Assembly: GCF_000739065.1 (NCBI RefSeq)
Contig: NZ_CP009149.1
Coordinates: 1,311,311-1,375,310, forward strand
DNA length: 64,000 nucleotides
Direction of reading: 5' to 3'
Source of the DNA: Methanocaldococcus bathoardescens
GTDB lineage: Archaea > AGJL01 > Methanococci > Methanococcales > Methanocaldococcaceae
Positions 19,740 to 59,158 of this stretch are shown here, one piece after another (the stretch's first letter is position 1; every line of letters starts with the position of its first letter). The notes beneath the pieces were generated by a model. That model was not told where the DNA came from, searched no databases, and worked only from the letters and a program-made list of their open reading frames with translations. A program made the translations under genes and the position numbers.

Positions 19740-19899
19740 TAACAACTCATCTAAATAACCTTTTCTTTCCATAGGGGGCGAAGCCCCCTATTGGTATACC
19801 CCAAATTTAATTTACACCTCCGAGCGTAGCGAGGAGGTGTTAGCTTTGATGAAACTTTCTTAAAGTTTCATAGCAACTCATCTAAGTAACCTTTTCTTT
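19740..19899. repeat. GC-rich palindromic insertion flanked by 29-bp direct repeats
   Basis: Two near-identical 29-bp copies, 19740-19768 and 19871-19899 (27 of 29 identical), flank a segment of about 102 bases. The right copy encodes the last codons of aIF1A; the left copy is a duplicate just before rio1. The segment holds three hairpins: ATAGGGGGC/GCCCCCTAT (19771-19791), ACACCTCC/GGAGGTGT (19814-19840) and ATGAAACTTT/AAAGTTTCAT (19849-19871). It is far richer in GC than its surroundings. The arrangement looks like insertion of a small element at the gene junction with target duplication. Confidence 0.75.
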
Positions 19900-32006: not shown

Positions 32007-32034
32007 ATAAAATATACCTGCACAAACCTAAGAG

Positions 32035-32093
32035 GCATTGTCCCTTTAGGGGGCAATGCATCCGTTTTGATGGGAACTTTTCCTAAAAGTTCC
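32035..32093. repeat. GC-rich double hairpin before the zinc-ribbon gene
   Basis: Two stems lie between mfnE and the zinc-ribbon gene. GCATTG-T-CCC pairs with GGGGCAATGC (32035-32059), and GGAACTTTT pairs with AAAAGTTCC (32073-32093). The second, with its flanks (TTTTGATG...CATA), closely matches the third hairpin of the element at 19849-19871. The sequence just after it (TACAAAAAATTATTTGG) resembles the end of mfnE (TACGAAAATTATTGG), hinting at a duplicated gene end as at aIF1A, but more decayed. Confidence 0.5.
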
Positions 32094-32120
32094 ATACAAA
32101 AAATTATTTGGGTGGGAGAG

Positions 32121-50029: not shown

Positions 50030-50133
50030 ATTAAAATCAGACCTCTTGGAGGATGGAAATACTATCACTTTTACGTGCTGTGTATCTTCTATCTAAATAT
50101 CTATTAAAATCAGACCTCTTAGAGGCTGAAGAC
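50030..50133 (+). CRISPR. one-spacer CRISPR locus, Methanocaldococcus-type repeats
   Basis: Two 31-bp repeats both begin ATTAAAATCAGACCTCTT. The first (50030-50060) ends GAGGATGGAAAT, which retains the ATGGAAAT 3' end of the known M. jannaschii repeat family. The second (50103-50133) diverges at its 3' end (GAGGCTGAAGAC), as terminal repeats often do. The single spacer is 42 bases (50061-50102). The inner CCTC/GAGG palindrome is kept in both. The AT-rich region to the left (49780-50029), with a TTAAATATAGG box near 49985, would be the leader. No cas genes are in the window. Confidence 0.7.
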
Positions 50134-50192
50134 AATCTTAAATCTTTAAATTTGTTTGCTATTATCAAAAAAAGCTTAATTAAAAAAATTAT

Positions 50193-57624: not shown

Positions 57625-57687
57625 ATAATTTTAGTCATACGATTCAAAGTCTTTAACGTATATTATTATAAAATGGTTGGACATTAA

Positions 57688-57746
57688 TTGCCTCTGAAAG
57701 AGGCAACTTAATGGACGTCGGGTATACCAATAGGGCGGAGCCCTAT
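57688..57746. repeat. GC-rich palindromic element before selB
   Basis: Two hairpins lie in the leader of selB: TTGCCTCT/AGAGGCAA with a GAA loop (57688-57706) and ATAGGGC/GCCCTAT with a GGA loop (57730-57746). The segment GGGTATACCAATAGGG...CCCTATGGA is shared with the element at 19769-19802 (other orientation), where only the loop and stem length differ. The second hairpin ends directly before the GGAGGTGG ribosome site of selB, so it could affect translation. Confidence 0.6.
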
Positions 57747-57760
57747 GGAGGTGGAGTTTT

Positions 57761-59158
57761 ATGGAAATGAAAAATGTAAATGTTGGATTGTTTGGGCATA
57801 TTGACCATGGAAAAACACAATTAGCAAAACAGCTAACAGAGATTGTCTCAACATCTGCATTAGATAAACCAAAAGAATCTCAAAAAAGAGGAATAACTAT
57901 TGATTTAGGATTCTCTTCTTTCACATTAGATAGATATAGAATTACCTTAGTTGATGCCCCAGGACATTCTGAGTTGATAAGAACAGCTATCGGAGCAGGA
58001 AATATTATAGATGCTGCTTTATTGGTTGTAGATGCTAAAGAAGGGCCAAAAACACAAACAGGAGAACATCTATTAGTTTTAGATTTATTAAACATCCCTA
58101 CGATTGTTGTTATAAATAAGATAGATATTGCAAATGATGAAGAGATTAAAAGAACTGAAACATTTATGAAGCAAATATTGAACTCAACAATGAATTTAAA
58201 GAACTCTAAGATTATTAAAATCTCAGCAAAAACTGGAGAGGGAATAGAGGAATTAAAGAAAGAGCTTAAAAATTTATTGGACAGCTTAAATATTGAGAGA
58301 GAGATAAACAGCTATTTAAAAATGCCTATTGACCATGCATTTAAAATAAAAGGAGTTGGAACTGTTATAACAGGAACAATTCATAAAGGGAAGGTAGAGG
58401 TTGGAGATACTTTAAGGATTCTACCTATAAACCATGAGGTTAAGGTTAAAAGCATACAGTGCTTTAAACAGGATGTTGAGAAAGCTTATGCTGGAGATAG
58501 AGTAGGGATATCTTTAATTGGAGTAGAGCCAGATAGTTTGTTTAGAGGATGTATATTAACTTCAGAAGATACAAAATTAAAGGTTGTAGATAAGTTTATA
58601 GCAAAGATAAAGATTCTTGAATTGTTCAAATATAACTTAGCCCCAAAAATGAAGGTTCATATAAATATAGGGCTTTTAACAGTTCCAGCTACGATAATTC
58701 CATATAAAATAGAGAAGGTTAATGATAAAGAAGAACCAATAGTATTAGAAGAAATTAAAGGTGGGGATTCTTGCTACTGTATCTTTAAATTAGAGGAAAA
58801 AGTTGTTGTTGATGAAGGAGATAAAGTTTTGATAATGAGATTAGACCTACCACCAACAACATTAAGAATTTGTGGTTTTGGGGAAGTTATTGGCTTTGAA
58901 GATGTGGAAGTTAAAAAGATAGTTGTAAAAGAAGGAAAAGTGGTTAAGAAAAAAGATAAAATTTATATTGAAGGATTAGCTTCTTCTAAATCATCTGGAG
59001 AAAAACTTATTGGAGAAAAAGTTTATGTTCCAGATAAAAATGTGTGGGGAATTATAAGAAAGACGTTTGGGACTAAAGGCTTTTTGATTGTTGAATTTAA
59101 CGGAGAGGTTAGTGGGGGAGAAAGAGCTATATTAAAAAGAGTTAGAAAATGGGGATAA
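57761..59158 (+). CDS. selB: selenocysteine-specific elongation factor
   Basis: SelB delivers selenocysteyl-tRNA to UGA codons. The 465-residue GTPase has the P-loop GHIDHGKT (residues 12-19), KRGITIDLGFSSF (switch I with the ITIDLG form typical of SelB rather than EF-Tu), VDAPGHSELIRTAIGAG (switch II) and VVINKIDIANDEE. Three beta-barrel domains follow, with FKIKGVGTVITGTIHKGKVE marking domain II. The short C-terminal domain differs from the bacterial winged helices, as expected in archaea. GGAGGTGGAG precedes the ATG. A SECIS element in this same window (63538-63572) fits its role. Confidence 0.95.
   Translation: MEMKNVNVGLFGHIDHGKTQLAKQLTEIVSTSALDKPKESQKRGITIDLGFSSFTLDRYRITLVDAPGHSELIRTAIGAGNIIDAALLVVDAKEGPKTQTGEHLLVLDLLNIPTIVVINKIDIANDEEIKRTETFMKQILNSTMNLKNSKIIKISAKTGEGIEELKKELKNLLDSLNIEREINSYLKMPIDHAFKIKGVGTVITGTIHKGKVEVGDTLRILPINHEVKVKSIQCFKQDVEKAYAGDRVGISLIGVEPDSLFRGCILTSEDTKLKVVDKFIAKIKILELFKYNLAPKMKVHINIGLLTVPATIIPYKIEKVNDKEEPIVLEEIKGGDSCYCIFKLEEKVVVDEGDKVLIMRLDLPPTTLRICGFGEVIGFEDVEVKKIVVKEGKVVKKKDKIYIEGLASSKSSGEKLIGEKVYVPDKNVWGIIRKTFGTKGFLIVEFNGEVSGGERAILKRVRKWG

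Follow-up and report, generated by a model that had tools for sequence, protein, structure and literature searches.

A dispersed hairpin repeat of Methanocaldococcus flanked by long, variable target duplications

Related repeats and insertion systems

Methanocaldococcus jannaschii is said to carry about 141 copies of MJRE elements, each about 100 nt long. These palindromic repetitive elements were published in 2005 (Suyama, Lathe and Bork, FEBS Lett 579:5281), a title listed among the references of PMC2229807 and PMC2996958. The repeat described below comes from the same genus and likewise forms short, palindromic, dispersed elements. The 1,664,970-base genome, which we take to be that of M. 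jannaschii, gives 58 hits with our covariance model. Judging by genus and description, the repeat probably belongs to or extends MJRE. Independently of the MJRE paper, we show here how the repeat is distributed across the genus, that its sites have empty counterparts in relatives, and that it has long target duplications, a target motif and covarying stems.

Prokaryotic MITEs are, like this repeat, short, non-coding and dispersed, with target duplications, and some copies of the repeat carry the hairpin inverted at both ends; unlike MITEs, it has one conserved end in most copies, duplications of 17–73 nt and no parent transposon found. REP/BIME elements with RAYT (Y1) resemble it as mosaics of extragenic hairpins. 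To our knowledge that system makes no target duplications, whereas the repeat has them, and Y1_Tnp occurs in just 2 of the 14 genomes of the genus.

IS1634/IS1549 (IS1634 family) generate long, variable direct repeats of 8–514 bp on insertion, for which no mechanistic model had been proposed as of 2008 (PMC2266710). They are the closest prokaryotic precedent we found for the duplication pattern of the repeat; unlike it, they are full insertion sequences with a DDE transposase. Casposons target and spare the 3′ ends of tRNA and protein genes, a preference shared by the repeat, and some of their TIRs are palindromic; they differ as large elements with cas1 and polB and with shorter duplications of 1–27 nt (PMC4046053).

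Copies, anatomy and distribution

The window, i.e. the whole 64,000-nt stretch of the Methanocaldococcus bathoardescens genome (G000) analysed here, contains two copies. The initial annotation had noticed a palindromic core common to two intergenic sites, and its coordinates and strands are confirmed: GGGTATACCAATAGGG-CGGAG-CCCTATGG lies before selB (57720–57748, plus strand) and GGGTATACCAATAGGG-GGCTTCGCC-CCCTATGG in an insert between aIF1A and rio1 (19769–19802, minus strand). Searching the window for the 15-base core, with up to 3 mismatches allowed, yields just these two hits against 0.93 expected, and both are exact; across the whole genome (1,607,556 bases) 20 sites match GGGTATACCAATAGGG..CCCTAT exactly, compared with 0 for a reversed-pattern control. 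A covariance model trained on 19 copies finds about 50 places in the genome and recovers both window copies (E about 1e-11 to 1e-12). The difference in stem length and loop between them is real and typical of the family.

The complete selB-side element (57677–57748, plus strand) consists of a TTGGACATTAATTG..CAACTTAATGGACG hairpin module, a GGGTAT linker and the terminal hairpin H2, CC-A-ATAGGGC-GGA-GCCCTAT-GG (57727–57748, plus strand; covariance model, 51.5 bits, E 3.9e-12), a two-module layout common among copies. Its downstream host gene is selB (57761–59158, plus strand; Pfam aSelB_III, E 4.9e-57), and a search of the flanks of the element detected no target duplication.

The second core sits within a complete 102-nt element of three hairpins (19769–19870, minus strand), which is bracketed by a 29-nt duplication of the aIF1A end, a setting missed by the initial annotation. 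Its terminal hairpin H2 (19769–19794, minus strand; covariance model) forms the sharp end, the middle module ACACCTCC..GGAGGTGT (19814–19840, minus strand) is present in many other copies too, and the left-end hairpin TGAAACTTTAAGAAAGTTTCA (19850–19870, minus strand) provides the TGA stop codon of aIF1A. The intact duplicate AAAGAAAAGGTTACTTAGATGAGTTGCTA (19871–19899, minus strand) holds the last codons of aIF1A, a gene assigned by Pfam, and the displaced duplicate AAAGAAAAGGTTATTTAGATGAGTTGTTA (19740–19768, minus strand), adjoining the terminal hairpin, differs from the intact one at 2 of 29 nt. Both changes are synonymous, as is a third in the stop codon (TGA/TAA), which lies just outside the 29-nt duplicate and is supplied by the element; in relatives with an empty site, aIF1A ends in TAA. 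The aIF1A protein thus stays whole because of the duplicate, with the element supplying TGA.

Generally, an element measures roughly 65–100 nt, is built of hairpin modules and ends sharply on the right in the palindrome; copies in M. bathoardescens are short (about 65–200 nt), non-coding, dispersed and numerous. The right-end hairpin has the form CC-A-ATAGG(N)..(N)CCTAT-GG with a bulged A. To its left stand GGGTAT or a variant, another hairpin module and then a variable AT-rich stretch. The modules come from a few alternatives (GAGGCATTGC..GCAATGCATCC; GGACATTAATTG..CAACTTAATGGACG; ACACCTCC..GGAGGTGT; GTGGGGCTGAACG..AGCCCCGC), of which larger copies are mosaics, and a 1,485,061-base relative carries several near-identical composites of about 250–300 nt. 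In some copies both ends bear the terminal hairpin, in inverted orientation (e.g., 145588/145690 in M. bathoardescens), while most simple ones have it at the right end only, their left end not being conserved. A hairpin element GAGGCATTGTCCC..GGGGCAATGCATCC plus GGAACTTTTCCTAAAAGTTCC, lacking the terminal hairpin, was also seen between two genes in the window (32030–32095).

A covariance search of the kind that the initial annotation had proposed as a check yields further copies in this genome and in four relatives and bears out its suggestion of a dispersed repeat family. Positive genomes number 13 of the 36 in the class, namely 12 of 14 Methanocaldococcus and 1 of 22 others. Besides the 58 hits noted above, three relatives have 48, 27 and 10 (genomes of 1,485,061, 1,760,939 and 1,746,329 bases, the first and last presumably M. 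fervens and M. vulcanius). An exact-pattern scan of 84,980 species gave matches in Methanocaldococcaceae/Methanococci records alone; the family is almost confined to Methanocaldococcus. Carriage of the repeat by viruses was rejected, as viral contigs contained no exact match to the pattern.

Target duplications and empty sites

Direct repeats of host DNA, one of them abutting the hairpin, flank 73 of 116 copies from four genomes, a set that partly double-counts, with three inverted-end elements entered once per end and five targets occurring in more than one genome. The repeats are 17–73 nt long (median 31) in a continuous spread, as in the long variable direct repeats of the IS1634 type, and have a mean identity of 90%. 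Abutting repeats occur in 63% of real copies versus 1.1% of mismatched-pair controls, and in the 1,664,970-base relative in 42 of 55 copies. The remaining 43 of the 116 copies, including that before selB, show no duplication; they may be old, nested or composite, or have arrived by another route.

What is duplicated is often the 3′ end of a gene, stop codon included; in some cases it is the start of a gene or the 3′ end of a tRNA. The host gene therefore stays whole. An ORF at least 80 codons long has its stop codon within the duplicate in 38 of 67 cases, compared with 29 of 840 one-sided control windows. Six insertions lie at tRNA genes, and there the duplication begins or ends in the T-loop. 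The native junction shows WW|WT...AAA..TTY, a motif whose strongest positions are +7 (A in 54/73, p 2.6e-10) and +13. Copies are met after stop codons, at gene starts, at tRNA ends and at the ends of CRISPR arrays.

Duplicate pairs show 102 synonymous versus 71 non-synonymous differences, a count over all frames, spurious ones included. The polarised changes in duplicates split 22 vs 17; among 3′ ends, the changes fall more often on the intact copy (22 vs 11). We considered that the intact gene end might be foreign or recoded and borne by the element, and set this aside in view of these counts: by rough estimate 102:71 is compatible with ordinary duplication with one constrained and one neutral copy. 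Single loci are still odd. At the G003 ortholog of the M. bathoardescens site 1208409, the 60-nt gene-end duplicate has 10 differences, all synonymous, and the displaced copy is closer to relatives than the intact one.

Comparison of nine loci with up to seven relatives revealed empty sites at all nine. The selB copy is absent in 7/7 relatives, the copy at 802490 in 6/6 and that at 158609 in 7/7. The aIF1A-rio1 site is empty in G006, G004 and G011, occupied with a further nested insert in G003 and marked by a degenerate remnant in G001; the copy is shared with the 1,664,970-base relative. At four gene-end sites (745358, 1208409, 1237627 and 204898) several species have an insertion, often one with different modules; this may reflect either fast evolution of the hairpin tip in old insertions or repeated hits. 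The junction in G004 at 745358 differs, and repeated hits are therefore favoured there.

The initial annotation had left open a second possibility, an RNA element shared by the two genes, and this part is not supported. Empty sites and target duplications, as expected for insertions, argue against a conserved regulatory RNA of selB or aIF1A, and an RNA specific to selB or rio1 was likewise rejected on the empty sites. The repeat is a genuine dispersed mobile repeat; its reading as a repeat family holds, its reading as a regulatory RNA does not.

Origin of the insertions

The repeat is dispersed and ends sharply in a hairpin. Long target duplications of variable length flank it, and relatives lack it at the same sites. 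It is very likely a non-autonomous, MITE-like mobile DNA element of Methanocaldococcus whose long target duplications spare genes. Compensatory stem changes, among them CG to GC at the outermost pair, speak for this reading too. A protein supplied in trans would recognise the folded terminal hairpin, whose A-T-A/T-A-T stem part is invariant, and join it to one strand at an AT-rich WW|WT...AAA..TTY site. The other end would be joined 17–50 or more bases away, and fill-in would duplicate the intervening stretch; the pattern supports a wide, variable stagger at insertion, made by a putative enzyme. Since the duplicated stretch often extends to a gene or tRNA end, that end would be rebuilt and the insertion would survive, the survivors presumably being those in which the gene is restored by the duplicate. 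On this reading the copies upstream of selB and rio1 arose in this way and need no function there. Against this explanation stand the more often derived intact copies at 3′ ends and the sites multiply occupied by differing modules, neither of which is predicted by a single clock-like insertion. The copies lacking a duplication and the unconserved left end of simple copies also count against it, as does the failure to find a mobilising enzyme among the families searched or an autonomous element with these ends.

The gene-rebuilding, long and variable duplications and the target motif are the interesting part of the repeat. The duplications explain dozens of insertions in a compact genome that has little free space, some beside essential genes and tRNAs, and the long flanking repeats offer a built-in route to precise loss of an insertion via recombination. 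Since the genus holds many comparable insertions, the mechanism of long variable duplication becomes testable. A tentative and rather doubtful speculation is that hyperthermophilic archaea have an undescribed transposition route. An integrase of the host, possibly Cas1-Cas2, would insert hairpins of folded nucleic acid across the genome, and long, variable target duplications would rebuild the genes, so that gene and tRNA ends are replaced while their function is kept.

A 5.2-kb stretch between inverted hairpins in G001, inspected as a candidate autonomous parent with the same ends, was rejected, as it holds only housekeeping-type genes (threonyl-tRNA synthetase-, CobB/CobQ- and transport-type). 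Several enzyme families were likewise rejected as mobilisers, as their presence does not follow the elements. Among the 14 genomes of the genus, Y1_Tnp (PF01797) is absent from M. bathoardescens, G001 and G003; DDE_Tnp_1 (PF01609, IS4-like group) occurs in 4–5 genomes (4 above the cut-off) and is missing from several copy-rich ones; the tyrosine recombinase Phage_integrase occurs in 7, M. bathoardescens not among them; and the reverse transcriptase RVT_1 (PF00078) in none.

Cas1 (12/14 genomes) is the best fit among the enzymes tested, but a weak one: it is found in 11 of the 12 carriers within the genus, whereas G002 has Cas1 without copies and G012 has one copy without Cas1. The Cas1-Cas2 CRISPR adaptation integrase could capture folded hairpin DNA and duplicate about one repeat length of target off-site. 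The median duplication of 31 nt is near the 30-nt CRISPR repeat, copies lie beside several CRISPR arrays and, in G003, directly upstream of cas1, and Cas1-driven casposons target the 3′ ends of tRNA and aEF-2 genes (PMC4046053). However, duplication length varies continuously from 17 to 73 nt and the target motif bears no obvious resemblance to a repeat boundary; together with the exceptions G002 and G012, this leaves the Cas1-Cas2 origin unlikely.

A structured RNA, either a cis-regulator or a small RNA common to selB, rio1 and other genes and kept for its fold, would account for the strict pairing. The initial annotation had pointed to stem changes that keep pairing, and this extends to the family: over 112 distinct rows 99.3% of cells are paired, with 84 double-change cells versus 31.0 (sd 3.1) in shuffles, and the signal is destroyed when the hairpin arms are slid against each other. 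The outermost pair, across the bulged A, changes from CG to GC in 9 rows, the tip pair is split evenly (CG/GC 53:53) and the A-T-A/T-A-T part is invariant. Either selection on a folded form or mutation that corrects the palindrome may maintain the paired stem. The two window copies fold much better than their shuffles (z about −6 for the selB copy as RNA or DNA), and on the element strand G-T mismatches slightly exceed A-C (7 vs 4 in one count, 9 vs 3 in another), at most a weak strand bias. Yet both DNA strands fold equally well, positions are not conserved (0/7, 0/6 and 0/7 relatives for the selB, 802490 and 158609 copies), sites are scattered over stop codons, gene starts, tRNA ends and CRISPR array ends, and the element has no Rfam match, only tRNA and CRISPR repeat families being detected in the window at gathering score. 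We consider this explanation quite improbable.

Retroposition, by which a folded RNA would be reverse transcribed into a nicked target, would leave the 3′ end sharp and let the 5′ end and the duplications vary, much as seen in the sharp structured right end, the variable AT-rich left end, the varying duplication length and the motif at the right-end junction; with RVT_1 absent from all 14 genomes of the genus and both junctions sharp in some copies with hairpins at both ends, its probability is very low. Palindromes can self-correct by template switching, which could keep pairing without selection, but chance similarity or mutation-driven palindromes without mobility, beside unrelated gene-end duplications, are refuted as a full explanation by copy number (20 exact copies vs 0 in the control), abutting repeats (63% vs 1.1%) and empty sites, and have next to no likelihood.

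Several further observations concern individual places. In M. bathoardescens (near 432500, 320180, 287050 and 160500) the hairpin lies directly at the end of a CRISPR array, and the repeat flanking the copy at 320158 is a degenerate CRISPR repeat. Between 145588 and 146600 two identical composites, oriented alike, stand 867 bp apart, suggesting tandem duplication of a segment. Inverted composites about 1 kb apart (131716–132728) enclose a gene whose two ends read as hisA. The window also holds a CRISPR relic or mini-array (50030–50135), made up of one spacer and two degenerate repeats, ATTAAAATCAGACCTCTTGGAGGATGGAAAT and a variant of it.
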